Source of the DNA: Herbinix sp.
GTDB taxonomy: Bacteria > Bacillota > Clostridia > Lachnospirales > Lachnospiraceae
Assembly (NCBI GenBank): GCA_029238935.1
Contig: JAQZBN010000009.1
Span: 62,001-126,000 of the forward strand
DNA length: 64,000 nucleotides
Reading direction: 5' to 3'
In this document: positions 22,070-58,600 of the stretch, one piece after another
Layout: every line of letters starts with the position of its first letter
Numbering within the stretch: position 1 is the stretch's first letter
Translations under genes and position numbers: made by a program
The notes under the pieces: generated by a model
Seen by the model: only the letters and a program-made list of their open reading frames with translations
What the model was told of the DNA's origin: nothing
Databases searched by the model: none

Positions 22070-23686
22070 ATGTATAAGGTTCTTATAGCAGATGATGAAG
22101 ATAAGGTATGTAAACTAATCTATCATCTTGTGGATTGGGAGCAATTTGGCTTAACTGTGGCAGCAATGGTCAACGACGGTGTATCAGCTCTTCAATTTAT
22201 TCAGGAGGAAAAACCGGATATTGTAATTACAGATATTCGTATGCCGGGATATGATGGGATTGAATTAATCCGAAAAGCGAAGGAATACAATCCTGAGATA
22301 AACTTTATCATTGTAAGTGGTTACCGTCATTTTGATTATGCTCATAATGCGATCAAGTACGGAGTTGAGGATTATTTATTAAAGCCCTTAAAAAAGGCTG
22401 AATTTATCACTACATTAACCAAGATGGTGCAAAAGAAAGAGACTATGATGCAATTGGTCCATGAAACTGAAGATTATAAGAGAAGAGTAAACCAGGGTGA
22501 TCAAATGATGAAGCAGACCTTTCTTGATCGGCTTCTAATAAACCCATCCTTCATAAAATCAGGGATTACAAGAGAAATGATTAATACAGAATTTCATTGT
22601 AATTTTATAAACGGCTATTACCAAGGTATTATCATAAAGCCAGATTTGACCATAGAAAATGAAGGGGAGCAAACCTATGATCTCTTGTTGGAAAAAGGAA
22701 AGGATATCGCCGTAAAACAGTTCGCTCAATGTTATCAGGAAGTCATTATAACCATTGCAAAAGAAGGAATTATATGCATCCTTAACGATACAATGGAACA
22801 AATGCAAGGCATACGTAAATACTTAAAGCAAATCCGAAGTGATATATTACATATGAGAGATGTGTTTTTAAATGTTAGAGTTACGATAGGAATCGGTGAA
22901 GCGGTAACAGAAATCACAGAAATTGCGGCTACCCTAAGAGGAGCAAAATCAGCAGTCCTAAATCGACTTCTTCAGGGAACCGGTCATTTGTTATCCGGAA
23001 TAAATGAAACACAAGGCGCTGTATCCCCTTATGATTTGATCGATAGTAATTTTCGAACTAAATTATTGATTTGCATAGAGACATTAAATAGTGATGGTAT
23101 CACCTCTCTAATCAATGAACTGATGGAAAAGTTATTTCATATGAAAAAAGTTGATGGAGAACTAATCTTTACGATGTGCTGTGAAATCTATGATATCTTC
23201 GCATTCGGTATGGCAAAGGATTATAACGTGGGGAAAGATGTGATAAACAAAGAGGAGTATGAACGACAATTTTATCACTGTGATACAGTTCAAGAAGTCT
23301 TTCAGCAACTGATTGTTGTAATGACAACGAAACTGGAACAGCTTAATTTAGAAAAGCAATTAGCAGATAAGAAACCAATCCGCTTGGCAAAGCAGTATAT
23401 CAAAGAAAAATACCAACAACCGATTACTTTGGATGAAATCAGTAATGAGATTGGTTTTAATCCTACCTATTTTTCTACGTTGTTTAAAAAGGAGACAGGA
23501 CAAAATTTTCTCGAATATCTGACGGATACGAGAATACAGGCAGCTAAGCAGTTACTGGCAGATACGGACAGAACAGTAATTCAAGTATCAGAGGAAGTCG
23601 GATATACGGATCTAAAGTATTTCACAAAATTATTTAAGAAGTCAACCGGTTTAACACCTTCTGAATATCGTAAATTATATTATTAA
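22070..23686 (+). CDS. YesN-type response regulator with AraC DNA-binding domain
   Basis: A 538-residue regulator. The N-terminal receiver (residues 1-120) has the acidic pair ADDED, phosphoacceptor Asp in DIVITDIRMPGYDG, the conserved VSGY and Lys in LLKPLKK. A linker of about 300 residues leads to a C-terminal AraC-type double HTH (LAKQYIKEKYQQPITLDEIS to TPSEYRKLYY). It is followed after 14 bases by the kinase gene. In this family the regulator activates sugar transport and glycoside hydrolase genes, which fits the neighbours. Confidence 0.92.
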   Translation: MYKVLIADDEDKVCKLIYHLVDWEQFGLTVAAMVNDGVSALQFIQEEKPDIVITDIRMPGYDGIELIRKAKEYNPEINFIIVSGYRHFDYAHNAIKYGVEDYLLKPLKKAEFITTLTKMVQKKETMMQLVHETEDYKRRVNQGDQMMKQTFLDRLLINPSFIKSGITREMINTEFHCNFINGYYQGIIIKPDLTIENEGEQTYDLLLEKGKDIAVKQFAQCYQEVIITIAKEGIICILNDTMEQMQGIRKYLKQIRSDILHMRDVFLNVRVTIGIGEAVTEITEIAATLRGAKSAVLNRLLQGTGHLLSGINETQGAVSPYDLIDSNFRTKLLICIETLNSDGITSLINELMEKLFHMKKVDGELIFTMCCEIYDIFAFGMAKDYNVGKDVINKEEYERQFYHCDTVQEVFQQLIVVMTTKLEQLNLEKQLADKKPIRLAKQYIKEKYQQPITLDEISNEIGFNPTYFSTLFKKETGQNFLEYLTDTRIQAAKQLLADTDRTVIQVSEEVGYTDLKYFTKLFKKSTGLTPSEYRKLYY

Positions 23687-23700
23687 TCAAGGAGAGGTTT

Positions 23701-24723
23701 ATGAAAATCAACAAACCCTTAGCAGAGAAAAGTGCATATCTTTTTCTCTGTCTGATTGGCATCCTAGGTCTGCAAACCAGTTACCTTCTTTATACCTTGA
23801 TGACCTCAATGGAGAAGATGCCTTTCGGATATCTGGTCATGATAGGAATTGCTATAGTTCTTGTGATCATTCTTTCCTTTGGCTATTCTTTTGTATTTCT
23901 TCCGTATCTTAGAATTCAAAAGACTATGCGGTTATTTTGTCAGGGGCATACGTACGAGCAGCTATTTCAGATGAAGGATACCTTCTGTCGCGATATGCCT
24001 TTGATGATGCAACGGATGAATGAACTGCTAGATAAGCAAACAGCAATTAAAATGTCTAAAAAACAAGCAGAGTATCTGGCGTTGCAAAATCAGATCAACC
24101 CACATTTTCTCTATAATACGTTGGAAGCCATACGAGGAGATGCCCTGGATGCGGGGATGATGAATATTGCGGAAACGACAGAAGCCTTAGCAACCTTTTT
24201 TCGTTATACCATAACTGAGGTTGAAAATCTGGTTACCTTAGAGGACGAACTTGAAAACGTAGAAAATTATTTTATTATTCAACAATATCGCTTTGGGGAA
24301 AAACTCAATATGAGGATTAATACCGGAGAAGACTTAAGTGTACTGCAATCACAACTTCCAAAACTTACGTTACAGCCGATTATTGAAAATGCAGTGTTTC
24401 ATGGACTGGAATGTAAACGGGGAGTTGGTACTATCCGCATTAATATCGAAACGACAAGGACAAAGTTATTGATCAGCATCATTGATGATGGGGTTGGGAT
24501 TGAGGAGGAACAGTTAGAACTGATTAATGAAAGGCTAAATCATATCGAGATGAATTATGAAAATGATAGGGAAGAAAAACGGGGCGGCATTGCATTACGT
24601 AATGTCAGCAGTAGAATTAAGCTACTCTTTGGAGAAGAATATGGGCTTCATATCTATAGTAATCAGAATATGGGAACGAATGTCAGAATCACATTACCTT
24701 TCATCATAAAACAAAAATCATAG
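23701..24723 (+). CDS. YesM/LytS-type sensor histidine kinase lacking an extracellular sensor domain
   Basis: A 340-residue membrane kinase. Two membrane segments (about 11-34 and 43-68) are joined by only about 8 residues, so there is no extracytoplasmic sensor, unlike typical YesM kinases. The His_kinase domain has the phosphoacceptor in QNQINPHFLYNTLEAIRGDA (His135), N box IIENAVFHG, D box DDGVGI and the GGIALRNVSSRI G box. Short-loop kinases of other families (BceS-like) take their signal from a partner transporter; the two ABC genes downstream make that plausible here. AAGGAGAGG precedes ATG. Confidence 0.9.
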   Translation: MKINKPLAEKSAYLFLCLIGILGLQTSYLLYTLMTSMEKMPFGYLVMIGIAIVLVIILSFGYSFVFLPYLRIQKTMRLFCQGHTYEQLFQMKDTFCRDMPLMMQRMNELLDKQTAIKMSKKQAEYLALQNQINPHFLYNTLEAIRGDALDAGMMNIAETTEALATFFRYTITEVENLVTLEDELENVENYFIIQQYRFGEKLNMRINTGEDLSVLQSQLPKLTLQPIIENAVFHGLECKRGVGTIRINIETTRTKLLISIIDDGVGIEEEQLELINERLNHIEMNYENDREEKRGGIALRNVSSRIKLLFGEEYGLHIYSNQNMGTNVRITLPFIIKQKS

Positions 24724-24734
24724 GAGGTGTACCT

Positions 24735-26171
24735 ATGCTTGAGGAAATACTTCGCATTGACAATGGAAGCTTGGTGCGAAATGGTCATATGTTGCTAAAA
24801 AGTTTGTATCTCCAGGCCTTTAAGGGAGAGATTTTGGGTTTGATCTCCGATAATATTATGGAAAAGCAGGGTATTCTGGATCTGCTTGGCGGTGCGGTAC
24901 CCTTTGAAAATGGTATGGTTTCTTTTGATGAAAGACGGATACAGGAGGAAGATATTACGCAAGTGTTTAAGAATAAAATTGCAGTAATTGAAAGTAAGAG
25001 TAAATTGGTTAACAACCTTACGATAGCAGAAAATATCTTTGTGGTTCGAGGAGGTTTTAAGAAATATTTTGTACATAAAAGATTACTTTATAAGCAGGCA
25101 GGAGGATTACTATCAAATTTTCACATGGCAATTCCACCGGATATGTATGCAGGCAAATTAACTCCACTTGAGCGATGTATGGTAGAATTAATCAAGGCTT
25201 ATGCTACGGGGCACCGGCTCATTGTGTTCAGTGATTTTACAAGTTTTCTTAGTAATATCGAACTGGAGAAGGTATTAAATATTATCATTTGGCTAAAGAA
25301 ACAAGGGGTCGGGTTCATCATGATCGAAAATTACGATGATGCTCTCATACAATATTCTGATCGTCTGGTGGTAGTTCAAAATGGAAAAACAATACGGATG
25401 TTTGATAAAGATGATACGGATATGGAGAAAATCACAGACCTTTTGATGGGAAATAAAAAATGGGAGAAAGTTGGGGAATCCCTAAAGCAATTCGATGAAA
25501 AGAGATTAGGATACAAATTAAATCCTAAAGTATTTGAATTAACGAATGTCACCTCTGAGCATATTAAGGATCTCTCGTTTCATCTACATTCTGGTGAAAT
25601 GATTAATGTATTATATCAGGAGGAGGAAAGCGGTGAAGAGTTTTTTCAGATACTTAAGGGAGAGCGTAAGTGTAAATGGGGAGAGATAAGATTATCAGCA
25701 AGAGAGTATCAACCTACTGGCTTATGGGATGCGATCCGACAAGGAGTCTGTTTTATCGAAGAAGATCCAATATCATCAATGCTGTTCTATGACATGAGTG
25801 TGATGGACAACCTTTGTTTTACGATGTCGAATAAGGTGAAAGGTTTATGGATCTTTCGAAAATACAAAAAAAGCATGGAGAAGCATCTGGAATTACAATT
25901 TGGTCAGAAGATACTTCACACGCCGATGAATAAATTAGATCCGGTGACACTTCAGAAGCTTGCATATAGCAAATGGTTATTGTATCTACCTAAAATTATT
26001 GTATGTAAGAAGCCATTTTCAGCAGTGGATGTGCATATGAGAGAGGTGACAGAACAACTTTTAATAACATATGCAGAGAAAGGAATTGCGGTGATCATAC
26101 TGACATCAAACAGCTTCGAAGCTCAGTTTATGGGAACTAGAATAATACAGCTGAGAGGCTCTATTTCATAA
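24735..26171 (+). CDS. Tandem ABC-type protein with all ATPase motifs degraded (pseudo-RbsA)
   Basis: A 478-residue protein that aligns end to end with sugar ABC ATPases of the RbsA/MglA class but lacks every catalytic motif in both halves. In half 1 Walker A (GENGAGKST in the true ATPase encoded next) is SDNIMEKQG, Walker B MDEPT is FSDFT, and the H-loop His is replaced (IENYDD for ISHRLE). In half 2 LSGGNQQK is LDPVTLQK and FDEPTRGID is CKKPFSAVD. It starts 11 bases after the kinase gene with AGGAGGTG, so it belongs to the two-component operon rather than to the transporter alone. It is probably a non-hydrolysing adaptor linking transporter and kinase; that is inference. Confidence 0.85.
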   Translation: MLEEILRIDNGSLVRNGHMLLKSLYLQAFKGEILGLISDNIMEKQGILDLLGGAVPFENGMVSFDERRIQEEDITQVFKNKIAVIESKSKLVNNLTIAENIFVVRGGFKKYFVHKRLLYKQAGGLLSNFHMAIPPDMYAGKLTPLERCMVELIKAYATGHRLIVFSDFTSFLSNIELEKVLNIIIWLKKQGVGFIMIENYDDALIQYSDRLVVVQNGKTIRMFDKDDTDMEKITDLLMGNKKWEKVGESLKQFDEKRLGYKLNPKVFELTNVTSEHIKDLSFHLHSGEMINVLYQEEESGEEFFQILKGERKCKWGEIRLSAREYQPTGLWDAIRQGVCFIEEDPISSMLFYDMSVMDNLCFTMSNKVKGLWIFRKYKKSMEKHLELQFGQKILHTPMNKLDPVTLQKLAYSKWLLYLPKIIVCKKPFSAVDVHMREVTEQLLITYAEKGIAVIILTSNSFEAQFMGTRIIQLRGSIS

Positions 26172-26208
26172 CCTAATTATAGTAAATATGCATAATAAAC
26201 GTAAACAT

Positions 26209-26257
26209 AGGGGGTCAATCATCATGGAAATAACCAATATCCAAAGATTGCCCCCCT
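26209..26257 (+). other. Hairpin between the two-component operon and the sugar transporter genes
   Basis: Arms AGGGGGTCAATC (26209-26220) and GATTGCCCCCCT (26246-26257) pair with one bulge around a 25-base loop; no T tract follows. It may be a partial transcription stop or RNA-processing site that sets transporter expression apart from the regulators. A 22-codon frame starting at 26224 inside it has only a weak ribosome site, and I do not call it a gene. Confidence 0.45.
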
Positions 26258-26378
26258 CTTTCAAAAGAGTGTCTGTTGTAGGAAATAGATAAAAATGTTA
26301 ATTTATTAATAGAAAAGAGATCTTAATTTGATTTATCTTCCCAAACTGCTTACAGCAGTGGTGAAAAGGAGAATAGGG

Positions 26379-27899
26379 ATGGGAGACTATATCGTTGAAT
26401 TAGACCATATCGGGAAGTCCTTTCCCGGGGTAAAGGCTTTGGATGATGTGCAATTTCATTTAAAACCTGGAGAAGTTCATGCGTTATTAGGGGAGAATGG
26501 AGCAGGAAAATCAACCCTAATGAAAATATTATGTGGAATTTATGAAAGGGATTGCGGGGAGTTTTCTGTGGACGGGAAAGAGATTCATTCCTTTTCACCG
26601 AAAATCGCTCAAGCGCTTGGAATTGCAATCATCCATCAAGAATTAAATATGTGTTCCCACTTAACCGTGGCAGAAAATATTTTTTTAGCACGGGAAGAGT
26701 TAAGCTTTGGTCTGATCAATCAAAAGTCCTTAAATGATAAAGCGAAGCAAGTATTGCATAAATTAAAACTAAACATCGATCCCACTACCATGGTCGGAAA
26801 ATTACCCATCTCTAAGCAGCAAATGGTAGAGATTGCAAAGGCTTTATCAACCAATGCAAGAATTCTTATTATGGATGAACCAACCTCTGCATTGACGGAG
26901 AATGAAATCAAAGAGCTATTTCGTATCATACGAGAACTTAAGGCAGAAGGAAAAGCGATTGTATATATATCCCATCGTTTGGAAGAACTGAAAGAAATAG
27001 TAGATCGGATCACCATATTACGGGATGGGAAGTATGTAACAACGAGAAATTTTACCGATACCTCCATTCCTGAGATTATAAGTTTCATGGTAGGAAGAGA
27101 GATAAAGGAAAAATATCCAAGAGTTGAACGGAAGCGGGGAAATAAAATATTAGAAGTGAAACATCTTCAAGCCGGAATGGTAAAAGATGTAAGCTTTGAT
27201 CTATATGAAGGAGAAATTATCGGGTTTGCCGGTTTAATGGGAGCAGGACGGACGGAACTGGTAAGAGCCATCTTTGGAGCAGATCGGATAGAGAGCGGTG
27301 ATATTTTTCTGGAAGGGACGAAAGTGGTAATCAAGTCACCGATGGATGCCATCCGTGTTGGGATTGTCTGTGCCCCGGAGGATCGAAAGAAAGAGGGACT
27401 TTGCACCGAATTAACCATCCGGGAGAATATAGGTCTTGCAAATCTGGATACGATTTGCAATAGGGTTGGGTTGATTCATGAGAAAAAAGAAATTGAACTT
27501 ACCCACAGGGCTATACAAGATTTAAAGATAAAAACCCCTTCTATAACGCAGGAAGTGAAGAATTTGTCTGGTGGAAACCAGCAAAAAATAGTTGTGGGTA
27601 AATGGCTGGTACGTAAAGCCAGAGTGGTTATCTTTGATGAGCCGACCAGAGGGATCGATGTAGCTGCTAAGGTAGAGATCTACAATCTCATGAACCAATT
27701 AAAGGAAGAGGGGATTGGTGTTATCTTTGTCTCATCGGAACTACCGGAGATTTTAGGTATGAGTGATAAGATCATTGTCATGTGTGATGGAAGAATAACC
27801 GGAGAGATCGCTAGAAGGGATGCAACTCAGGATATTATTTTAAGCTATGCAACGCAATACCGGGTGAAGAAGGAGGTTAACGGATATGGAGGCAAATAA
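26379..27899 (+). CDS. Sugar ABC transporter ATP-binding protein (RbsA/MglA/XylG class)
   Basis: A 506-residue cytosolic protein of two fused ABC domains. Half 1: Walker A GENGAGKST, LPISKQQMVEIAKAL signature, Walker B ILIMDEPTSAL, H-loop ISHRLEE. Half 2: the class-typical variant Walker A GLMGAGRTEL, signature LSGGNQQK and FDEPTRGID. ATG at 26379 follows AAAAGGAG; an in-frame start at 26328 lacks a site. The gene overlaps the permease gene by 14 bases. It powers import of a monosaccharide, probably a pentose or similar sugar given the GH51 gene nearby. Confidence 0.94.
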   Translation: MGDYIVELDHIGKSFPGVKALDDVQFHLKPGEVHALLGENGAGKSTLMKILCGIYERDCGEFSVDGKEIHSFSPKIAQALGIAIIHQELNMCSHLTVAENIFLAREELSFGLINQKSLNDKAKQVLHKLKLNIDPTTMVGKLPISKQQMVEIAKALSTNARILIMDEPTSALTENEIKELFRIIRELKAEGKAIVYISHRLEELKEIVDRITILRDGKYVTTRNFTDTSIPEIISFMVGREIKEKYPRVERKRGNKILEVKHLQAGMVKDVSFDLYEGEIIGFAGLMGAGRTELVRAIFGADRIESGDIFLEGTKVVIKSPMDAIRVGIVCAPEDRKKEGLCTELTIRENIGLANLDTICNRVGLIHEKKEIELTHRAIQDLKIKTPSITQEVKNLSGGNQQKIVVGKWLVRKARVVIFDEPTRGIDVAAKVEIYNLMNQLKEEGIGVIFVSSELPEILGMSDKIIVMCDGRITGEIARRDATQDIILSYATQYRVKKEVNGYGGK

Positions 27900-28899
27900 A
27901 CAATCGATAGTAAAACGCTTTTTAGCTATTCGGGGCATGGGGCAGGTAATCTCTGTTACTGTAGCTTTGGTTATTATGATCATCGTATTTGGTATCATTA
28001 ATCCAATGTTCTTCTCCGGGAATAATACCGCGAATCTGCTTCGTCAGGTAGCACCGATCCTAATCATCGGAATCGGTCAATCGTTTGTGCTGATCACCGG
28101 AGGAATTGATTTGTCGATTGGTTCTGTTGCAGGTATGTCCTGCATGATGTCAGCAACTTTAATGACAGCCGGAAAGATGAATGCAATCTCTGCATCGATT
28201 ATTACCTTACTATGCTGCTGCGCTATTGGTTTTATTAATGGTTTATTGATTGCGAAAACAAAGCTTCCTGCATTCATTGCTACCCTGGGTACGATGATCA
28301 TTGCCAGGGGTATTGCTCAGTTGGTCAATGGTAATATGAATACGGATAGTATTAATTCGGATGTATTTCGGGATATTTTTTATTATGGTGAATTCCTGGG
28401 AATTTTTACACCAATTTGGATCGCCTTTCTGCTCTTTGTTGTATTTGCAGTGATACTCGCCAAGACCCGTACTGGTCGTCATACTTACGCCATTGGCAGC
28501 AATTATGAAGCAGCCAAATTATCCGGAGTAAATGCGGTGGTGGCACAAACAAAGGTGTATGTCTTCTCCTCCTTTCTTGCCTGTATCGTAGGTTTTATAC
28601 TGACTGCCCAAAGTGGTATGGGAAGTATGGATGCCGGAAATGGCTATGAACTAAATGCGGTTGCTGCTTCCGTTATCGGAGGTGTTAGTACAATGGGAGG
28701 TCAGGGCATGTTGTTTGGAACGGTTATTGGAGCTTTTATTTGGGGTGTACTAAATAATGGACTGCAATTTGCTGGAGCTCCGCTGGCGTTTCGAAATCTG
28801 GTAATCGGAGTAGTAGTCATCATATCCGTTTTAATTGACCGGGTTGCCAGAGGAAATTTAAGCGGAAAGAAATTATTTGCTTTAAAGAGATCAAAATAG
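27886..28899 (+). CDS. Sugar ABC transporter permease (RbsC class)
   Basis: A 337-residue membrane protein with 8-10 helices and the family blocks GIDLSIGSVAGMS, KTKLPAFIATLGTM and YAIGSNYEAAKLSGVN, the last being the ATPase-contact loop. ATG at 27886 lies inside the end of the ATPase gene and has a perfect AAGGAGGT, so the overlap is real and indicates coupled translation. Confidence 0.94.
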   Translation: MEANKQSIVKRFLAIRGMGQVISVTVALVIMIIVFGIINPMFFSGNNTANLLRQVAPILIIGIGQSFVLITGGIDLSIGSVAGMSCMMSATLMTAGKMNAISASIITLLCCCAIGFINGLLIAKTKLPAFIATLGTMIIARGIAQLVNGNMNTDSINSDVFRDIFYYGEFLGIFTPIWIAFLLFVVFAVILAKTRTGRHTYAIGSNYEAAKLSGVNAVVAQTKVYVFSSFLACIVGFILTAQSGMGSMDAGNGYELNAVAASVIGGVSTMGGQGMLFGTVIGAFIWGVLNNGLQFAGAPLAFRNLVIGVVVIISVLIDRVARGNLSGKKLFALKRSK

Positions 28900-28965: not shown

Positions 28966-29910
28966 ATGAAAACAAGAAAGGCAATTGCTTTGCTACTTGT
29001 GATGGCGATGACAGTATCATTATTTCTTACTGGATGTGGAAAAAATAATGATGATACAACTACTTCAGCAAATGCAAACGGTGATTACAAGGTTTACTTA
29101 ATTACGATGGATAAAATGGATCAACACTGGGTTTCCGTTGATAAAGGGGCTTCTAATATGGCGGATATATGTGGTGTTGCTTATAAATGGGATGCTCCCG
29201 ATAAAAAAGATAATGCAAAGCAAATTGAATGTGTAAATAATGCGGTAGCCGATGGTGCGGACTTGATTTTATTAGCCGCTAATGATCCGGTAGCGATCTC
29301 TACAGCAGTAGCAGACGCAAAAGCAAAAGATGTTAAAATCATTTACGTTGACTCACCGGCAAACGAAGAAGCAATCGCTACCTTATCAACAGATAATTAT
29401 GGTGCCGGAAAAACAGCAGGTGAAACCATGTTAAAAGAGTTAGATGCAGCAGGTAAGTCCAGCGGTTCCATTGGTATTATCAGCGTTAATACAGCAACCA
29501 ATTCCACAATGAATAGAGAAGCAGGTTTCCGTGCAGCGATTGAAGCAGACGGAAGATTTACCCTTCTGACCACTGAATACAAAGACGGCGACGCAGCAGC
29601 ATCACAGGAAGCAGCAGCTGGCTTTATCACAGGTAATGCTGATTTAGTAGGTCTCTTTGGAGCTAATGAAGGCTCAACAGTTGGCGTTGGTAATGCGATC
29701 AAAGCAAATAACGGCGGTATCATAGGGATTGGATTTGATAAGTCCGATGCAATCATGGATTTATTAAAAGACGGTAGCTTAAAAGCAGCTATGGCGCAAA
29801 ATCCTTATACCATGGGATATCTTGGTATGGCTCAAGCAGTTGCAGCATTAAATGGATACAGTACAGGTCCGGCTACGATTGATACCGGTGTTGCTGTTCT
29901 TACCAAATAA
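28966..29910 (+). CDS. Sugar ABC transporter solute-binding lipoprotein (RbsB class)
   Basis: A 314-residue lipoprotein with lipobox LTGC (Cys25). The mature part is a Peripla_BP_4 fold (VYLITMDKMDQHWVSVDKGA, then VADGADLILLAANDPVAIST, GIISVNTATNSTMNREAGF and GIIGIGFDKSDAIMDLLKDG). AGAGGAGG precedes ATG. It delivers the sugar to the RbsC-type permease. The ligand cannot be read from the sequence; the linked GH51 points to arabinose-type sugars. Confidence 0.92.
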   Translation: MKTRKAIALLLVMAMTVSLFLTGCGKNNDDTTTSANANGDYKVYLITMDKMDQHWVSVDKGASNMADICGVAYKWDAPDKKDNAKQIECVNNAVADGADLILLAANDPVAISTAVADAKAKDVKIIYVDSPANEEAIATLSTDNYGAGKTAGETMLKELDAAGKSSGSIGIISVNTATNSTMNREAGFRAAIEADGRFTLLTTEYKDGDAAASQEAAAGFITGNADLVGLFGANEGSTVGVGNAIKANNGGIIGIGFDKSDAIMDLLKDGSLKAAMAQNPYTMGYLGMAQAVAALNGYSTGPATIDTGVAVLTK

Positions 29911-31413: not shown

Positions 31414-33030
<1,617 letters not shown>

Positions 33031-33306
33031 TATAGTAAAATCCCGAATAAAGTATCTTAATAGGTGAAATGCTTTTAAATTGATAGTAAGGATACCTTGA
33101 TAAACAGCAAAGGATCTTACACACTATAAGAATATAAAAGGGATATATAAATTAAGCAGGTAATATTGCTATATGCGTCTTAAAAGATGGATGATCTTAG
33201 AATGTGTATAAAAATAATTAACTGCATGTGTTATACCATAACATAAGAAAATTAGTCTCATCTTTGAACGGGATAACAAGATGTATTGTTTGGGTGGTGC
33301 AGGAAT

Positions 33307-34923
33307 ATGGACAGAAGTGCGAATATAAGAATAATCCAAGGGTATGAGTCCCATGAGATCGGCTGTTCCCCTGGTAAAAGTTTGATGGAGGCGTTGTTGG
33401 ATGAAGGAATTTATATCAACGCCTCTTGTGGAGGAAATGGTACCTGTGGAAAGTGCGGTGTGATAGTCCTAGAAGGAAATCTATCAATTACTTCTCAGGA
33501 TCATAGCTTATTTCATGAAAGTGAACTTAGAAAAGGATATCGTCTTTCTTGTCAAGCGTATCCCACTACTCCCTGTACAATCAAACTTCAAACAGGGGAT
33601 GAAACAGGTTTTGAAGCAATTACCGGCTTTTCGAAGTCAGAAGTGACCGAAGAAACAGAAATCACAAAAGTTACAAAAGTTATAGAAGTTACAGGTAATC
33701 AGGAGGATGGTTATGGAATAGCCATAGATCTTGGAACTACCACAATTGCATTTGTACTTGTGAATCTTCGCAATGCTCAGGTTATCGCATCTCATTCAAC
33801 AGTGAATAAGCAAAGAGCATATGGTGCCGATGTGATATCCAGAATACAAGCATCTAGTGAAGGAAAAGGGCAAATGCTTCGTAGGATTGTCCAGAAGGAT
33901 TTGCTGAATGGTATAAATGAAGTTTTTAGATTAAGTAATATAGAAAAAGAATATTTAAAACATATCACAATCGCAGGAAATACAACAATGGGACATCTGT
34001 TGTTAGGGTATTCCTGTGAAAGTCTTGGAATTTATCCCTATACCCCGGTGAACATCGGTATTACGACTTTAGATTTTTGTGAAGTGTTTCAGACAGAGGA
34101 TTATAACATTCCCGTAACACTGCTTCCAGGTATTTCAACCTTTGTTGGAGCTGATATTACAGCCGGTTTACTGTATTGTGATTTTGATCAAAAAGAAGAG
34201 ATTTGCTTACTCATTGATCTGGGGACAAATGGAGAAATGGCGATTGGTAATAAGGAGCGGATTTTAGTATGTTCGACGGCAGCTGGACCTGCTTTTGAAG
34301 GTGGAAATATCTCCTGTGGTGTTGGAAGCATACCTGGAGCAATCTGCAGTATCAATATCCAGCCGGATGGAAACCACTTACAAACGATACAGGATCAGTC
34401 TCCAATTGGGATATGCGGTACAGGAGTAGTAGAAATTGCATCGGAACTTCTTCGGAATGGCATTATGGATGAGACTGGGTTATTAGAGGAGCCGTATTTT
34501 GAAACCGGATATCTACTGGAGGGTGTGGAGACCGATTCTCCTTCTGCATTCGGGAAAATTATTTTTACCCAAAAGGATATCAGGGAGCTACAACTGGCAA
34601 AAGCAGCGATTCGGGCGGGAGTGGAACTTCTGATCCAAAGATATGGTGTAACCTATGAAGAGATTGCAACGATCTATCTTGCCGGTGGTTTTGGATATAA
34701 GATTGACATTTCGAAAGCAGTTCATATCGGACTTCTTCCGAAAGAGTTTCTTGGAAAGATAAAAACCATAGGAAACAGTTCTTTGGCAGGAGCTTCCCTG
34801 TATTTGACCGAGAAAGGAAATGGGGATCGGCTGAATGATATTATAAGAAGATCAGAAGAGGTTTCCTTATCCAAGGACCAGGATTTTTATGATTTATATA
34901 TTCGATCGATGAATTTTGAATGA
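33307..34923 (+). CDS. RACo-like ferredoxin/ASKHA protein (corrinoid-protein reductive activator family)
   Basis: A 538-residue protein. Residues about 1-95 form a plant-type [2Fe-2S] ferredoxin (SCGGNGTCGKCG with the fourth Cys in LSCQAYP). A short Thr/Val/Glu-rich linker leads to a DUF4445 ASKHA ATPase domain (YGIAIDLGTTTIAFVLVNL, ITIAGNTTMGHLLLG, LLIDLGTNGEMAIG, IYLAGGFGYKIDISKA). Members such as RACo and RamA spend ATP to re-reduce Co(II) in corrinoid methyl-transfer proteins. No corrinoid protein or methyltransferase is in this window, so its target lies elsewhere or is new. The start is ATG at 33307 behind CAGGA. Confidence 0.88.
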   Translation: MDRSANIRIIQGYESHEIGCSPGKSLMEALLDEGIYINASCGGNGTCGKCGVIVLEGNLSITSQDHSLFHESELRKGYRLSCQAYPTTPCTIKLQTGDETGFEAITGFSKSEVTEETEITKVTKVIEVTGNQEDGYGIAIDLGTTTIAFVLVNLRNAQVIASHSTVNKQRAYGADVISRIQASSEGKGQMLRRIVQKDLLNGINEVFRLSNIEKEYLKHITIAGNTTMGHLLLGYSCESLGIYPYTPVNIGITTLDFCEVFQTEDYNIPVTLLPGISTFVGADITAGLLYCDFDQKEEICLLIDLGTNGEMAIGNKERILVCSTAAGPAFEGGNISCGVGSIPGAICSINIQPDGNHLQTIQDQSPIGICGTGVVEIASELLRNGIMDETGLLEEPYFETGYLLEGVETDSPSAFGKIIFTQKDIRELQLAKAAIRAGVELLIQRYGVTYEEIATIYLAGGFGYKIDISKAVHIGLLPKEFLGKIKTIGNSSLAGASLYLTEKGNGDRLNDIIRRSEEVSLSKDQDFYDLYIRSMNFE

Positions 34924-34935
34924 ATGATGTGATAG

Positions 34936-35010
34936 AAAACTCCTTTGTATGGATAATTATTTGGCTTGCTGGTTAAATAGTTTACCATATATTTGGAGTT
35001 TCTCTATTTG
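34936..35010 (+). terminator. Terminator-like hairpin after the RACo-like gene
   Basis: AAACTCC (34937-34943) pairs with GGAGTTT (34995-35001) with an inner TATGG/CCATA pairing, followed by T-rich sequence. The loop is long, so confidence is limited. Confidence 0.4.
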
Positions 35011-35017
35011 TATATTT

Positions 35018-35090
35018 CTGATTATATAAACGTAAGAAAATTAGTGTAATGTTGCTGATTTTATATACGTAAGAAAATTAGTGTTATGTT
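35018..35090. repeat. Tandem direct repeat of 36 bases
   Basis: Copies at 35018-35053 and 35055-35090 agree at 33 of 36 positions and share CGTAAGAAAATTAGTGT. They lie in the 404-base gap before the Gfo/Idh gene; the rest of the gap is AT-rich with no other element I can support. Confidence 0.8.
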
Positions 35091-35327
35091 ATACTTAGAT
35101 TTCAAGATTATAGATCACAGGAAGATAGAAAATTTTATATTGGTAGATAGAAAAAAATAAGGGTTATCTTTATTTTTTTATTTGTAATATTTAAATAAAA
35201 CCATTTAAAAAAAGGACAAAAAGTAATATAATGATAGAAATTTCATAATTATACCATGCTTTCCTAGAATCATGGATAATTTAATAATTATAAATAAATT
35301 ATGGACAATTTACAGGAGGAATGTAAT

Positions 35328-36407
35328 ATGCAACGGAGTGACGGAATGAATTATGCACCGAAGGGAAAGCCATCCCCGGTGGTAAAAAAAGGAGAGTTCG
35401 CATTTGCAGCAATTGCATTGGATCATGGTCATATTTATGGTATGTGTAACGGGTTAACAGAAGCAGGAGCAGATTTAAAGTGGGTATATGATCCCGATCC
35501 GGAGAAGGTTGCACAGTTTTGCAAAGCATTTCCGGGGGTAAGGGCAGCGCAAAGTGAAGAAGAAATCCTAATGGATCCCGAGGTAAAATTGGTTGCAGGA
35601 GCAGCAGTTACCAATAAACGCTGCGAACTGGGTCTTCGAGTGATGGATGCCGGTAAGGATTATTTTACAGATAAATCCCCTTTAACTTCCTTAGAACAGC
35701 TGGCTGCAGCCAAAGAAAAGGTGAAAACAACCGGCAAGAAGTATATGGTTTATTACAGTGAACGACTCCATGTAGAAAGTGCAATTTATGCTGGTGATTT
35801 AATCAAAGAGGGTGCAATTGGACAAGTAATCCAGGTATTAGGATTAGGACCCCACCGATTAAATGCTAAGCAAAGACCGGACTGGTTCTTCAAGAAGGAG
35901 CAATATGGTGGCATACTCTGTGATATCGGCAGTCATCAGATCGAACAGTTTTTATACTATAGCGGAGCGAAAGATGCTCAGGTTGTAAGAAGCCAGATCG
36001 GTAATTATAATCATCCGGAGTATCCGGAGTTGGATGACTTTGGTGATTGCAATATAGTCGGAGATAATGGAGCAAGTAATTATTTTCGTGTTGATTGGTT
36101 CACACCGGATGGTTTATCTACCTGGGGAGATGGAAGAACAATATTACTAGGAACAGAAGGCTACATAGAATTACGCAAATATGTAAATGTCGGTATGTCC
36201 GCAACTCCGGATCATGTGTTCCTCGTAAATGGCAAAGGAGAGCATCATATCGAAGTATCAGGTCAAGTTGGCTTCCCGTATTTTGGCCAATTGATATTGG
36301 ATTGTTTAAACAGAACGGAACATGCCATGACACAGGAACATGCATTTAAAGCAGCAGAGCTCTGTGTCAAAGCACAGATGGCAGCAGTTGAACTGACAGG
36401 AAGATAA
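35328..36407 (+). CDS. Gfo/Idh/MocA-family NAD(P)-dependent oxidoreductase
   Basis: A 359-residue enzyme. The Rossmann half begins FAFAAIALDHGHIYGMCNGL and continues WVYDPDPEKVAQFCKAFPG; the motif DYFTDKSPLTSLEQL corresponds to the EKP catalytic segment, with Lys retained as DKSP. The C-terminal half is the alpha/beta dimer domain (YGGILCDIGSHQIEQFLYYSG). ATG at 35328 is 7 bases from AGGAGGA; the ATG at 35301 has no site. Such enzymes oxidise or reduce sugars, inositols or related compounds; the substrate is unknown. Confidence 0.88.
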   Translation: MQRSDGMNYAPKGKPSPVVKKGEFAFAAIALDHGHIYGMCNGLTEAGADLKWVYDPDPEKVAQFCKAFPGVRAAQSEEEILMDPEVKLVAGAAVTNKRCELGLRVMDAGKDYFTDKSPLTSLEQLAAAKEKVKTTGKKYMVYYSERLHVESAIYAGDLIKEGAIGQVIQVLGLGPHRLNAKQRPDWFFKKEQYGGILCDIGSHQIEQFLYYSGAKDAQVVRSQIGNYNHPEYPELDDFGDCNIVGDNGASNYFRVDWFTPDGLSTWGDGRTILLGTEGYIELRKYVNVGMSATPDHVFLVNGKGEHHIEVSGQVGFPYFGQLILDCLNRTEHAMTQEHAFKAAELCVKAQMAAVELTGR

Positions 36408-36460
36408 GTACACCATTGTTAATAAGCTTTCTATCCTCAAATGGATTGAATGAAATGCCA

Positions 36461-36489
36461 TTGACTTTCTAAGGAAAAACTACTATACT
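36461..36489 (+). promoter_or_regulatory. Promoter of the NifH-like/amidohydrolase operon
   Basis: TTGACT (36461-36466), 17-base spacer, TATACT (36484-36489), 40 bases before the ATG. It separates this operon from the Gfo/Idh gene upstream. Confidence 0.7.
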
Positions 36490-36529
36490 CAGATGCAATT
36501 ATGAGATTAGGATAGAAGAAGGAAAATCA

Positions 36530-37402
36530 ATGGATCGTAAAACAAAAAGAATTGGTATCTTAGGAAGAGTAGGAGTCGGCAAATCGATCATAGCATCCAA
36601 CTTAAGTGAGGCTTTGGTAAGGGAAGGCTATAAAGTATTATTAATAGGAACGGATATCAGTTTAAGCTCCACTTTACTGGTGCGGGGGTTTGCTGATATC
36701 CCGTCCGTATTGCAGGATTATCGGGAAAAATATTCAATCCGTTTACAGGACTATATCATAAAGAGCCAGATTGGCGTTTATTGTATGGAGCTTGGTAGTA
36801 TAGAACCGGGATCCGGCTGTTTGGCAAAAGGACTCAGTCACATTGATGAGATGTTAACGGCACAGGGTGTATTAGAGGAATATCAGATAGATTATATTCT
36901 GTATGATATTGCCGGTGATGTTGCCTGCACAGGTTTCATATTACCCATCCGGGAAGGGGTTATGGATCAGTGCTTAATTATAACAAACGGCAATATGGCA
37001 TCTCTTAGTACGGCAAATACGTTACTTTCCGGGATAACGAAGAAAGGACTCATTCCCAGTAATACATGTTTGGTAGGTAATCTATCCGATGTATTTCATA
37101 CAAGATCTTTTCTTACTGAGTATGCAGAGATAGTAAATATCCCGATTCTTTCCTTTATTGAATTTTCTCCTATTATGAGAGATAGCTATTTGGCTGAGAA
37201 GACAATCTATCAAATAAATCCTGAATCATCTATGGTGGAGGCATTTCGTGACATGGCACTTTCCATGATTGATATGGAGGAAAAGACCAAGATGAAACCA
37301 TTTGAACAAAGAAGCTTGCTCCAATGGCAGCAAGCATGGAAAAAGAAGGAATTAGATTATAACAGGGGCATAATTGACGTTGACTATTCTTCGAATATAT
37401 AA
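36530..37402 (+). CDS. NifH-like (nitrogenase iron protein/BchL/CfbC superfamily) ATPase
   Basis: A 290-residue P-loop protein that follows NifH through its length. The P-loop is GRVGVGKS (12-19), with Arg where NifH has the signature Lys of GKGGIGKS. Both bridging-cluster cysteines are in place: Cys97 in EPGSGCLAKG and Cys133 in YDIAGDVACTGFILPIRE, the latter nearly identical to NifH DVLGDVVCGGFAMPIRE. So a dimer with a shared [4Fe-4S] cluster that passes electrons on ATP hydrolysis is expected. About 40 extra C-terminal residues are Lys/Gln-rich. There is no NifD/NifK/NifE/NifN-like partner in the window, and the next gene, 12 bases downstream, is an amidohydrolase. Its function is unknown; it is not evidence for N2 fixation. 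Confidence 0.85.
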   Translation: MDRKTKRIGILGRVGVGKSIIASNLSEALVREGYKVLLIGTDISLSSTLLVRGFADIPSVLQDYREKYSIRLQDYIIKSQIGVYCMELGSIEPGSGCLAKGLSHIDEMLTAQGVLEEYQIDYILYDIAGDVACTGFILPIREGVMDQCLIITNGNMASLSTANTLLSGITKKGLIPSNTCLVGNLSDVFHTRSFLTEYAEIVNIPILSFIEFSPIMRDSYLAEKTIYQINPESSMVEAFRDMALSMIDMEEKTKMKPFEQRSLLQWQQAWKKKELDYNRGIIDVDYSSNI

Positions 37403-37414
37403 GGAGTACAAAAA

Positions 37415-38767
37415 ATGCTTGATCTGGCAATAAATAATGGTACCGTAATCGATACCGTGTCCTTGCAACAAAGAGCCTTTCATATCGGTATTAAGAAAGG
37501 CAAAATAGTGGAATTATCGAAGGAACCATTATGTGCGCAGATCATCATTGATGCACAGAACCTGATCGTAAGTCCGGGTTTTATTGATCCTCATGGCCAT
37601 ATCGATGGTTATGAGTATTCCTATGAATTATCTGCATGCCAGGGTATTACGACCACGGTAGGTGGTAATTGTGGATTAAGTCCAATTAATATCAGTGAGT
37701 TTTTTGCTAAAGAAGATCAGAAAGGTTGCCCAATTAATCAGGCGGAGTTAATAGGTCATTCTTTTTCCTTACGAAAAGCAGTGGGTATCAAAGATGTTTA
37801 TCAGAAGGCAGAGAAAGACCAAATACAGAAGATGAAAGAATTGGCACAAAAAGCTCTGGCTGATGGTGCCTGCGGTATTTCCTTAGGGTTAGATTATTCA
37901 CCGGGTGCTTCCTTTGAGGAAATCCTTACCTTAGCGCAAGTTTGTGCGGAATATAATCGTATTCTGCCGGTACATACAAGATTATTTACCTCCTACGATA
38001 TGAATTCTCTTTATGAGGTACTTGAAATCTCAAAGAGAACGGGAGTCAAATTATTGATCTCTCATTTTGTATATCAGTACGGAGAAGGTATTATGGAGGA
38101 AGCTCTTTCGATTGTGGATAAAGCAATCGCTCAAGGTATTCCAGTTACCATTGACAGTGGTATGTATACAGATTGGGCTACGGCAATCGGAACAGCAACC
38201 TTTGACGAACAAGTACTTAAAGACAATAGTGTTGCCTTTTCCCATCTTATTGTTGCAACTGGAGAATATTACGGAAATGTACTAAACCGTGAAATCTATA
38301 CAAAATTGCGTACAAGTAATCCAAATGAATCAATTATATGTAGATCTGGCCATCCGGATAGTGTATATCAATGCCTTAAAAAATCCTATTGCATCCCTTC
38401 CACAGATATCGGAAATTATAAGCAAGGGGAAGGACATCCGCAAATCGCCGGAACCTTTCCGAAATACATCAAAGAAATGGTGAGAGAGCGGAAGGAATTA
38501 TCGCTGGAAGAAGCCATTGCAAAAGCTACGTTGCTTCCGGCACAATTATTTGGATTTTTGGATAAGGGTAAATTGGAGATTGGAGCAGATGCGGATATAA
38601 CCATCTTTGATTATTATGCGCTTGAAGATAAAGCACGCTTTCCGGGAGAAGGATTTCCGGATGCAAAGCCAAAAGGCATTCCTTATGTAATCGTAAATGG
38701 AGAATTGGTAGTAGACAATTGTGTTTATACCGGCAGAAAAGCAGGAAAAAACATTCGCTTTCTATGA
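37415..38767 (+). CDS. Amidohydrolase, D-aminoacylase (N-acyl-D-amino-acid deacylase)-like
   Basis: A 450-residue metal-dependent hydrolase of the D-aminoacylase branch. The first metal motif is FIDPHGHIDG; GITTTVGGNCGLSPINI is the family-typical segment with the metal-binding Cys; later ligands are in LPVHTRLF and LLISHFVYQYG, and HPQIAGTFPKYI and GKLEIGADADITIFD close the fold. AAGGAG lies before ATG. It is co-transcribed with the NifH-like gene. The family removes acyl groups from D-amino acids but also contains hydrolases of other cyclic or linear amides, so the substrate is unsettled. Confidence 0.86.
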   Translation: MLDLAINNGTVIDTVSLQQRAFHIGIKKGKIVELSKEPLCAQIIIDAQNLIVSPGFIDPHGHIDGYEYSYELSACQGITTTVGGNCGLSPINISEFFAKEDQKGCPINQAELIGHSFSLRKAVGIKDVYQKAEKDQIQKMKELAQKALADGACGISLGLDYSPGASFEEILTLAQVCAEYNRILPVHTRLFTSYDMNSLYEVLEISKRTGVKLLISHFVYQYGEGIMEEALSIVDKAIAQGIPVTIDSGMYTDWATAIGTATFDEQVLKDNSVAFSHLIVATGEYYGNVLNREIYTKLRTSNPNESIICRSGHPDSVYQCLKKSYCIPSTDIGNYKQGEGHPQIAGTFPKYIKEMVRERKELSLEEAIAKATLLPAQLFGFLDKGKLEIGADADITIFDYYALEDKARFPGEGFPDAKPKGIPYVIVNGELVVDNCVYTGRKAGKNIRFL

Positions 38768-55550: not shown

Positions 55551-55621
55551 ACAGTATGAAGCAGTTGGGCATCTTGGTGAGACATAATAGAATAGATAAT
55601 ATTTAGAAAAGAGGATTGCTT

Positions 55622-58600
55622 ATGAAGGAAATGAAAGCAGATGTAGACCAGGTCCAGCAAAGCTTATATGATCCTAGCTTTGAACATGATAATTGTGGTA
55701 TCGGTGCAGTTGTCCACATGAAGGGTTTAAAAACCCATGATACTGTAGCAAATGCTCTTAAGATTGTAGAGAATTTAGAACATCGTGCAGGAAAAGATGC
55801 AAATGGACAAACGGGTGATGGAGTAGGTATCCTTCTTCAGATTTCTCATAAATTCTTTACTAAGGCAGTAGAACCCTTAGGAATTGAACTTGGCTCGGAA
55901 CGTGAATACGGTGTAGGAATGTTCTTTTTCCCGCAAGATGAGTTAAAACGTAATCAAGCGAAGAAAATGTTTGAAATCATCGTAGAAAAAGAGGGATTGA
56001 AATTCTTAGGATGGAGAGAGGTACCGAACAAACCTCAAACCTTAGGTGAGAGAGCAATTGAATGTATGCCGTTCATCCTTCAATGTTTTATTAAAAAACC
56101 AACGAATGTAAAAAAAGGCCTTGATTTTGACCGTAAATTATATATTGTAAGAAGAATCTTTGAACAAAGTAATGACAATACTTATGTAGTTTCTTTATCT
56201 AGTCGTACCATTGTTTACAAAGGTATGTTCCTTGTACATCAACTTCGGTCATTCTTTGAAGATTTACAGGACGAAAACTATGATAGTGCTATAGCAATCG
56301 TGCACTCCCGTTTCTCCACCAATACAAATCCCAGCTGGCAGAGAGCACATCCGAACCGTTTGATTGTTCACAATGGGGAAATCAATACCATTCGTGGGAA
56401 TGCGGATAAGATGCTTGCCAGAGAAGAGACAATGGAATCAGAACACTTAAAGGGAGAACTTCATAAAGTACTTCCTGTTGTAAATACCGAAGGCTCTGAT
56501 TCAGCAATGCTGGATAATACGTTAGAGTTTCTTATCATGAGCGGAATGGAATTGCCCCTTGCCGTTATGATTACCATTCCGGAACCATGGAGCTATGATA
56601 CAAGTATCAATTCTGAGAAGAAGGATTTTTATCAATATTATGCTACCATGATGGAACCCTGGGATGGACCAGCTTCCATTCTATTCTCCGACGGTGATAT
56701 GATGGGAGCCATTCTTGACCGTAACGGATTAAGACCTTCCCGTTACTATATTACCAATGATGATTATCTTATTCTTTCTTCTGAAGTAGGTGTATTAGAT
56801 ATACCAGCAGATAAAATCATTAAAAAAGAAAGACTTCGTCCCGGTAAGATGTTACTTGTGGATACCATAAAGGGTAAGTTAATTGATGATGAGGACTTAA
56901 AAAATTACTACGCAAGCAAGCAACCCTATGGTGAGTGGTTGGATAGCAACTTAGTAATGTTAAAAAATCTGCATATTCCAAATAAAAAAGTCGTTGAGTA
57001 TAGTAATGAAGAACTGGCTAGATTACAAAAAGCTTTTGGATATACCTATGAGGACTATAAATCCACCATTCTGCCGATGGCTAAGAATGGTCAGGAAGCG
57101 GTTGCAGCAATGGGTGTGGATTCACCAATCCCTGTATTATCAAAAAATAATCCTCCATTATTTACGTATTTTAAACAGCTGTTTGCTCAGGTAACCAATC
57201 CTCCGATTGATGCAATTCGTGAAGAAATCGTTACCTCCACTTCAGTTTATATCGGTGAAGACGGGAACCTGCTGGAGGAAAAGGCAGAGAACTGTAAAGT
57301 TCTTAAGATTAATAACCCGATATTAACAAATACAGATTTATTAAAGATCAAGCATATGAAGATAAAAGGCTTTAAAGTTGAAGTGATTCCTATGATTTAT
57401 TACAAGAATACTTCCTTAGAAAAAGCTATAGATCATCTCTGTGTCGAAGCAGACCGCGTATATAAAGAAGGAGCTAATGTTCTGATTTTATCAGACCGTG
57501 GTGTGGATGAAAATCACGTAGCAATTCCTTCTTTATTAGCAGTATCCGCATTACAACAACATCTGGTTCGTACAAAGAAGAGAACTGCGGTAGCTATGAT
57601 TGTAGAAAGTGCAGATCCAAGAGATGTTCATCATTTTGCAACCCTGTTAGGTTACGGTGCTTGTGCGGTAAATCCATATTTAGCACAAGAGACCATCCGT
57701 CAATTGATTCATGATAATTTACTGGATAAGGATTATTATGCTGCGGTGGATGACTATAATAAAGCAGTTCTAAAAGGTATCATTAAGATTGCTTCTAAGA
57801 TGGGTATCTCGACAATCCAGTCCTATCAAGGATCCAAAATATTTGAAGCAATCGGTATCTGTAAGGAAGTAATAGATAAATATTTTACCGGGACAGTGAG
57901 TCGTATCGGAGGCATTACTCTTACGGATATGCAGGAGCAGGTGGATAACCTACATTCCATGGCCTTTGATCCTCTGGGATTAAATCTTGATTTAACCTTA
58001 GACAGCGATGGCTCCCATAAGCTTCGCAGCGGGAAGGAAGAGCATCTTTATAATCCAAAAACAATACATTTACTGCAGCAGTCAACCCGTACCGGCAGTT
58101 ATGATATGTTTAAAGAATATTCTAAGATTGTGGAAGAGGAAGATGCTAAGATTCATCTCAGAGGTTTATTAGAGTTTAATTATCCCGAATCAGGAATCTC
58201 TCTGGATGAAGTTGAAAGCGTAGAATCAATTGTAAAACATTTTAAAACTGGCGCTATGTCCTATGGATCTATCTCCAAAGAAGCCCATGAGACATTAGCA
58301 ATTGCCATGAACCGTCTGGGAGGCAAATCAAATAGCGGTGAAGGCGGTGAAAGTCTTGAGCGTCTGACTGTAGGGGAAGATGGTATCAACCGTTGTTCTG
58401 CAATCAAGCAGGTAGCATCCGGACGATTTGGCGTTACCAGCGAATATTTGGTTAGTGCGAAAGAAATCCAGATTAAGATGGCGCAAGGTGCAAAACCAGG
58501 AGAAGGTGGTCAGTTACCTGCAGAGAAAGTATATCCTTGGATCGCAAAAACCAGACATTCAACACCTGGGGTTGGATTAATCTCTCCTCCGCCTCATCAT

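Follow-up and report, generated by a model that had tools for sequence, protein, structure and literature searches.

XylFII-LytS-YesN is a binding-protein three-component sugar system of clostridia, with its kinase near the importer. CuaD-CuaS-CuaR is likewise a clostridial sugar system whose kinase adjoins a sugar importer (PMC10384115). In the Bce-type modules of Bacillota (BceAB-BceRS), the kinase BceS has no sensing domain and reads an ATP-binding cassette (ABC) transporter (PMC10314905), and the transporters bear an unusually large extracytoplasmic loop (PMC3023708). PstSCAB-PhoU-PhoR also has a kinase without a periplasmic sensor that is thought to read transporter conformation, and the Escherichia coli PstB variants Q160K and E179Q are transport-dead and still give opposite signals (PMC5775613), which shows that an ATPase need not work to transmit a signal of this kind. 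The locus described here lies in a 64,000-nucleotide stretch of Herbinix sp. DNA (Lachnospiraceae; assembly GCA_029238935.1, contig JAQZBN010000009.1, positions 62,001 to 126,000), hereafter the window. It encodes a response regulator (RR), a sensorless histidine kinase (HK) and a dead ABC protein (dABC) related to the tandem sugar-importer ATPase RbsA, followed by an intact RbsA-RbsC-RbsB importer. dABC is a widespread Bacillota family. The RR-HK-dABC triad is probably a dedicated signalling module in which dABC would act as an adaptor between an RbsC-type permease and the sensorless kinase; docking, signal direction and ligand are what we infer. Among the matches listed from the open-licence literature, no description of such a system was found.

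All six genes lie on the forward strand between 22070 and 29910 in the order RR, HK, dABC, RbsA, RbsC, RbsB (Table 1), and 11 bases separate the HK stop codon from the dABC start. With 86.4 bits to His_kinase and 42.5 bits to HATPase_c, both above cut-off, the kinase is of the YesM/LytS type (PF06580). Hydropathy gives two membrane helices joined by 6-8 residues, and the AlphaFold2 model, with a predicted local distance difference test score (pLDDT) of 85.5, shows an N-terminal two-helix hairpin (helices 7-35 and 42-80, 6 residues between). Two helices, a very short loop and no sensor domain are the marks of an intramembrane-sensing kinase. Neither hydropathy nor the model shows an extracellular domain, unlike in binding-protein three-component systems, where the binding protein meets an extracellular domain of the kinase. 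The same architecture prevails among 157 kinase open reading frames (ORFs) from related loci: hydropathy finds two helices in 138, one in 11 and none in 8, several of the one- or no-helix ORFs being truncated or misstarted. The median loop of the two-helix kinases is 8 residues, and 135 of the 138 have at most 18; the exceptions are L254 (24), L207 (26) and L239 (218).

The surroundings differ from those of the described transporter-reading kinases. A Bce module has a working ATPase and a large-loop transporter, whereas here a PF06580 kinase stands beside an RbsABC importer and a separate dead ATPase; the neighbouring transporter combines ABC_tran, BPD_transp_2 and Peripla_BP_4 and is not of the BceAB type. 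The Pst system uses the PhoU adaptor and a working PstB, with no dead paralogue of the nucleotide-binding domain (NBD); none of the six operon proteins has a Pfam match to PhoU, the rest of the genome not having been searched.

dABC resembles the RbsA/XylG/AraG tandem ATPases in fold, length and whole-length alignment, but lacks an ATP site and falls in a clade separate from the RbsAs. It scores 152-155 bits against the best three NCBIfam models of this group, whose cut-offs are 689-745 (152 against 745 for RbsA), and matches ABC_tran weakly (27.7 bits). Its AlphaFold2 model, built from 37 sequences, is a tandem NBD (pLDDT 87.7, predicted template modelling score 0.78), and the best solved Foldseek match is another, DppD (8wdb_D, template modelling score 0.70 by query length), the tandem ATPase of an importer. 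Set beside the RbsA of its own locus, dABC reads SDNIMEKQG for GENGAGKST, LIVFSDFTSFL for ILIMDEPTSAL, IMIENYD for VYISHRL, LDPVTLQ for LSGGNQQ and IIVCKKPFSAVD for VVIFDEPTRGID. Even the intact RbsA departs from the canonical motifs in its first signature (LPISKQQ) and its second H-loop (SSEL), which left just one canonical ATP site to lose; of its parts, dABC retains a lone Lys44 in the former P-loop. A sequence-only reading of the window had described the sensorless kinase, the 11-base spacing and the intact importer that follows, all of which are borne out by hydropathy, modelling, coordinates and domain matches. Its further claim that the ATPase motifs are destroyed in both halves holds for the canonical site, and has to be narrowed to that one site and its remaining lysine.

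This loss is general. With the canonical site defined as the Walker A Lys, Walker B Asp and Glu, H-loop His and signature Gly-Gly, none of 140 dABCs has it complete, against 126 of 126 RbsAs of the same loci; the set includes the window protein and leaves out L207, ORFs shorter than 441 residues and L236-L255. The Asp of the second Walker B is absent throughout (140/140), the Lys of the first Walker A is present at its column in 58, and K, D and E of the first half are all kept in 4. Of the RbsA columns conserved at 85% or more, 46 lie inside motifs and 53 outside; at least half of the dABCs keep 8 of the former and 22 of the latter (Fisher p 0.015, from columns that are not independent). Asn100 is kept in 93% of dABCs (96% of RbsAs) and Asn359 in 100% of both after rounding, while E4, R7, F351, Y411, R413 and F428 are newly conserved in dABCs.

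The lost motifs, together with a mean distance of 1.88, the highest among the six proteins, could suggest that dABC is a functionless, decaying RbsA duplicate. Such an origin is scarcely credible. Close dABC pairs are under purifying selection: the nonsynonymous rate (dN) is far below the synonymous rate (dS) in the 14 pairs listed of 40 (0.07 against 1.35 for L041/L042; dS saturated in one). Full-length ORFs in more than 100 loci, the newly conserved residues and the single tree group formed by 59 dABCs point the same way, and pseudogene decay was rejected on dN/dS and conservation.

A search with the window protein against 397 genomes of the same family returned 29 relatives (L011-L039), all 29 with ruined motifs. 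A profile of the family (A1) found at least 45 places in at least 37 of these genomes at 355 bits or more, lower bounds because four candidates per genome were scored; the next places scored at most 316. This gap was rejected as a family boundary, because more divergent dABCs, down to 84 bits (L245), were found only via the kinase. At the order level 16 of 392 genomes match at 1e-90, some within the range of ordinary RbsA scores, and at the phylum level 7 of 398 match at 1e-98, the window's own genome included. One dABC subgroup has 294 relatives in a scan of named genomes, and the titles among the best 80 of these 294 include Lachnospiraceae, Oscillospiraceae, Clostridiaceae, Caloramator, Tepidanaerobacter, Paenibacillus and others. 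All 1873 plasmid-borne matches lie below 60% identity, and the five listed share about 25%, a level reached by ordinary RbsA-like proteins too. The window genome consists of 157 contigs and is 95% complete with 8% contamination. An assembly artefact was considered and rejected on the recurrence of the full gene order in named isolates, namely Mobilisporobacter senegalensis (L100), Anaerocolumna aminovalerica (L171), Diplocloster modestus (L114), Robinsoniella peoriensis (L126), Caproiciproducens faecalis (L103) and Paenibacillus dakarensis (L123).

Gene order was followed in 157 regions annotated with profiles built from the first 40. dABC appears in 152 of them, or 142 after identical regions are dropped and near-identical ones kept; 19 of the 142 loci were found through the kinase, L207 was counted by hand, and dABC alone led to the other 122. 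In 137 of the 142, the gene directly upstream of dABC is HK, which RR precedes in 133; the corresponding figures for the 122 are 117 and 113. Where more than 7 kb is available on both sides (84 of the 122), HK is present in 81 loci, RR and HK in 79, RbsA in 80, RbsC in 79, and RbsA and RbsC together in 78. Five loci lack an HK directly upstream. In L118, L120 and L121 dABC precedes RR-HK, with a same-strand gene of about 680-750 residues intervening, and in L175 and L193 the contig ends. HK is present without an adjoining called RR in L054 and L177, where genes are split or broken, and in L062 and L122, where the contig ends. Weak-hit RbsA loci (L071, L072, L073, L076) show no triad kinase in the stretch read. 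Of the 120 loci in which the six genes are complete, 57 carry the transporter downstream as A-C-B and 20 downstream as B-A-C, while 36 carry it upstream and 7 divergently. Degeneration and gene order recurring in more than 100 loci are more than chance.

The same association is recovered starting from the kinase, whose profile (A3) finds 94 places in 60 of the 397 genomes at 1e-85. At 355 bits or more, kinase and dABC each occur in 37 genomes and share 35 (Fisher 2e-45); the two kinase-only genomes carry a dABC adjoining the kinase on inspection (L215, L216), and of the two with dABC only, one has its kinase split (L054) and in the other the contig ends (L193). Comparison of coordinates shows that 43 of the 94 kinase places touch one from the set of 45 for dABC. 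From the remaining 51, 41 were fetched: L207, a batch of 20 and a lower-scoring batch of 20. A dABC gene adjoins the kinase in all 20 of the first batch, in L214 as a 151-residue fragment only. In the lower-scoring batch it is the best model directly downstream in 15 of 20, barely so in L254 (266 against 263 bits), and L238 and L241 are cut by contig ends. The other five are a half-degraded RbsA-like protein (L239), pieces (L242), a fusion (L246), a 238-residue piece adjoining RR (L247) and the order dABC-RbsB-RbsC-RR-HK (L252). The expectation, voiced from the sequence alone, that the pseudo-ABC protein co-occurs with short-loop kinases is confirmed by these counts.

The fusion joins the two partners in one chain: in L246 a single 616-residue ORF comprises a triad-type kinase (28-363) and the first half of dABC (400-614, 6.4e-29), adjoined by a short RR (253 residues) and an RbsB-RbsC-RbsA set. 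Other loci tie dABC to a permease. A second RbsC-type permease directly follows dABC in L048, L172, L227, L236 and L237, besides the RbsA-RbsC-RbsB set; L236 and L237 are close kin. The second permeases of L227, L236 and L237 have strongly diverged (profile score 118-132, still BPD_transp_2). They keep the cytoplasmic G-x-N...SG loop and carry DLAFA or DLSFA as the membrane DLSxG motif, and are perhaps non-transporting. When ten neighbours were tested as hidden permeases, that of L227 alone proved to be one; three of the others were binding proteins and six Fic, xylose isomerase-like, ROK or radical-SAM proteins. L040, the best-scoring relative of the window protein in the 397-genome search, has the order RR-HK-dABC-RbsB-RbsC followed by amidase and lanthionine genes, with no RbsA within 9 kb to the left or right. 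RbsB-RbsC with no RbsA in the stretch read recurs in L252 and in L228 and L245, which belong to one genome, the rest of these genomes not having been checked; in L251 the RbsB-RbsC pair beside dABC lacks RbsA, and a full set follows further along. Several transporter-upstream loci encode a tandem RbsB with two Peripla_BP_4 domains in a chain of about 600 residues, three of which were checked (L060:4416-6260, L146:5295-7175, L203:13143-14999).

Coevolution was assessed by partial correlation of distance matrices over the 120 six-gene loci, and the resulting network places dABC between RR-HK and RbsC/RbsA. RR-HK correlate at 0.52, HK-dABC at 0.28, RR-dABC at 0.26, dABC-RbsC at 0.33 and dABC-RbsA at 0.24; within the transporter, RbsA-RbsC give 0.33, RbsA-RbsB 0.32 and RbsC-RbsB 0.46. 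RR or HK against RbsA, RbsB or RbsC lie between -0.02 and 0.06 (HK-RbsB 0.06, HK-RbsC 0.04), and dABC-RbsB is -0.07. Thinning, ranks, equal column numbers and rate matching leave the main lines of the pattern intact. In the transporter-upstream order (n=36), dABC-RbsC reaches 0.54 (0.11-0.80), two of these loci, L048 and L172, also having a permease after dABC. Adjacency alone would predict a dABC-RbsB link in the B-A-C order and an RbsB-RR link in the upstream order; the values seen are -0.02, in a subset of 20 loci too small to be firm, and 0.06.

The adaptor reading follows from the L246 fusion, the distance network, the dABC-dedicated permeases and the loci without RbsA in the stretch read. 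Transporter-coupled signalling through a dedicated family of dead-ATPase adaptors is an interpretation supported in its main line, and unproven. Most likely, dABC sits on the RbsC-type permease in RbsA's place and relays the state of the permease to the kinase. It appears to keep the tandem-NBD fold and part of the permease-meeting face and would be unable to run an ATP cycle. Docked on the permease dimer, it would hold the sensorless kinase, as the fusion and the strict adjacency suggest. Sugar-loaded RbsB would meet the permease, the permease would change shape and dABC would pass the change to the kinase, after which the phosphorylated AraC-type regulator would switch the RbsABC importer together with its sugar genes. 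The receptor would in this way be an importer copy whose motor is dead. The bolder claim is put forward tentatively: these systems could form a new class of bacterial sugar receptor, an importer turned sensor, in which sensing would fall to the binding protein and the permease, with the dead tandem ATPase taking the motor's place and gating a sensorless histidine kinase, some lineages having a dedicated permease (L227, L236, L237) and one a fusion of a dABC half to the kinase (L246).

dABC could instead be a transport brake that competes with RbsA for the permease, the kinase merely controlling its supply. The shared RbsA fold and an importer that is nearly always encoded nearby would suit such a role, but a brake would need no sensorless kinase, and the position of dABC directly after RR-HK in 113 of 122 loci and the fusion of one half to the kinase make it improbable.

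Several observations weigh against an adaptor on the permease. Outside the motifs, 31 of 53 RbsA-conserved columns are also lost in dABCs, so much of RbsA's surface has changed. The stretch holding Asn100 and Asn359 presumably faces the permease, as it does in known ABC importers, which is not shown here; a PDB search with the intact RbsA gave no chain at 1e-40 and so no contact residues of an RbsA-RbsC complex. Neither RbsA nor RbsC is found at the thresholds used in 13 of the 142 loci, 10 of which have one flank shorter than 7 kb (in L044 RbsA is cut at the edge). The triads of L079, L177 and L200 have no RbsC-type permease in the stretch read despite longer flanks; perhaps they work with a distant transporter. 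In L177, RR and kinase are broken. Among the distances, HK-RbsC climbs to 0.11 when ranks are used and to 0.14 when rates are matched, HK-dABC is -0.04 in the transporter-upstream subset, where intervals are wide, and dABC-RbsA is -0.05 in the A-C-B order. Distance correlations, moreover, cannot prove contact. Finally, an operon of this kind encodes near-intact ATP motifs in L207, and the kinase loop of L239 spans 218 residues, so neither trait is essential throughout the clade.

Two further explanations draw on these points. dABC might partner the kinase alone, as a scaffold or by sensing a sugar phosphate or nucleotide from the cytosol in its former nucleotide cleft, without permease contact. 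No other link is as strict as that to HK, and none besides it occurs as a fusion, in which the first half of dABC takes part. That half retains the Walker A Lys in 58 of 140 proteins and K, D and E in 4, so some dABCs might bind nucleotide, and the permease-free surroundings of L079, L177 and L200 would also fit. The dABC-RbsC and dABC-RbsA correlations, the dedicated permeases, the RbsB-RbsC loci without RbsA and the presence of both RbsA and RbsC in 78 of 84 long-flank loci nevertheless leave this explanation rather unlikely. Alternatively, the two helices of the kinase could themselves directly sense RbsB, the permease or a signal in the membrane, and dABC would merely stabilise the kinase. 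BceS, which lacks a dedicated sensing domain, contacts its transporter by membrane helices (PMC10314905), and the rate-matched HK-RbsC value is in line with such contact; but HK is almost unlinked to RbsB and RbsC in the main network and its loop has 6-8 residues, and direct sensing is accordingly quite improbable. Probably, then, dABC is the adaptor.

The order of events can be glimpsed from the tree. Among 88 proteins, 59 dABCs form one group (SH-aLRT, the Shimodaira-Hasegawa-like approximate likelihood ratio test, 93), and a larger clade separate from the RbsAs (SH-aLRT 99) adds L207, L239 and L254, branching successively. The first-branching relative (L207:8572-10023) has GENGAGKST, LLILDEPAHPF, LLITHNI, GLSGSGKST and LSGGNQQ, with the Glu of the second Walker B replaced by Gln, a change reminiscent of a trapped ATPase; L239 and L254 have half-degraded ATP motifs. 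ATPase death is therefore derived and not required throughout, and from this branching the kinase partnership seems older than ATPase loss, with long branches leaving the exact order unsure. The kinase tree resolves its base poorly and places two long-loop kinases within the triad group, so it was not used to prove the order. The sequence-only reading had proposed that dABC, docked on permease or kinase, reports transporter state, and had taken an intact-motif homologue in a like operon as telling against it. The fusion, the network, the dedicated permeases and the loci without RbsA favour the proposal; one near-intact homologue, L207, was encountered, and since it branches first it is read as an early stage and not as a refutation.

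Table 1. Features of the triad, its importer and the diverged permeases (window positions unless a locus is given)
Feature	Position	Strand	Basis
AraC-type response regulator (RR), YesN-like, triad gene 1	22070..23686	+	Response_reg 8.9e-26, HTH_18 8.7e-23
Sensorless YesM/LytS-type histidine kinase (HK), triad gene 2	23701..24723	+	His_kinase PF06580 1.6e-24, HATPase_c 9.6e-11
HK codons 36-41, short inter-helix loop, no space for a sensor domain	23806..23823	+	AlphaFold2 model
dABC, catalytically dead tandem RbsA-like protein, triad gene 3	24735..26171	+	motif tables, AlphaFold2 model, Foldseek
Former Walker A, dABC half 1, SDNIMEKQG, destroyed except Lys44	24846..24872	+	
Asn100 of dABC, helical subdomain past the Q-loop, half 1	25032..25034	+	
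Former Walker B, dABC half 1, LIVFSDFTSFL, D to S and E to D	25218..25250	+	
Asn359 of dABC, half 2, place equivalent to Asn100	25809..25811	+	
Former signature LDPVTLQ through Walker B of half 2 IIVCKKPFSAVD, dABC	25935..26030	+	
Inverted repeat between triad and transporter genes	26210..26255	+	z -2.2; 3/200 shuffles fold equally well
Intact RbsA-type tandem ATPase	26328..27899	+	606 bits to RbsA model; motifs
RbsC-type permease	27886..28899	+	BPD_transp_2 4.2e-42
RbsB-type sugar-binding lipoprotein	28966..29910	+	Peripla_BP_4 6.5e-44
Diverged RbsC-like permease between dABC and RbsB gene	L227:7314-8222, L236:6440-7345, L237:10867-11790		

The inverted repeat is a candidate attenuator or boundary and may separate control of the triad from that of the transporter; the promoter/terminator scan did not call it as a terminator, and that scan and Rfam gave nothing useful for the window. 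For RbsA, the ATG at 26379 and the TTG at 26328 are equally likely starts. An arabinofuranosidase gene (31486-33030, NCBIfam ArfA) lies 1.6 kb 3' of RbsB, past an opposite-strand major facilitator superfamily gene, and is no more than a hint at the ligand. Farther along, 33286-38767 encodes in succession a RACo-type activator, a Gfo/Idh/MocA oxidoreductase, a NifH-like protein and an amidohydrolase, perhaps a corrinoid-linked pathway, and an ORF of 1519 residues occupies 55616-60175. Elsewhere, at L143:10001-20300, a dABC triad adjoins a set of binding protein, long sensor kinase and RR with its own RbsB-RbsA-RbsC, so that both sensing modes stand side by side; L205 has a similar set resembling a binding-protein three-component system.

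The series from the near-intact L207 through the half-degraded L239 and L254 to the dead dABCs forms a ladder along which the conversion of a motor into an adaptor becomes directly testable. As dABCs resemble transporter ATPases without an ATP site, counts of sugar importers in these genomes may include signalling parts. If the adaptor reading is true, it would explain what many sensorless YesM-type kinases of Bacillota listen to.

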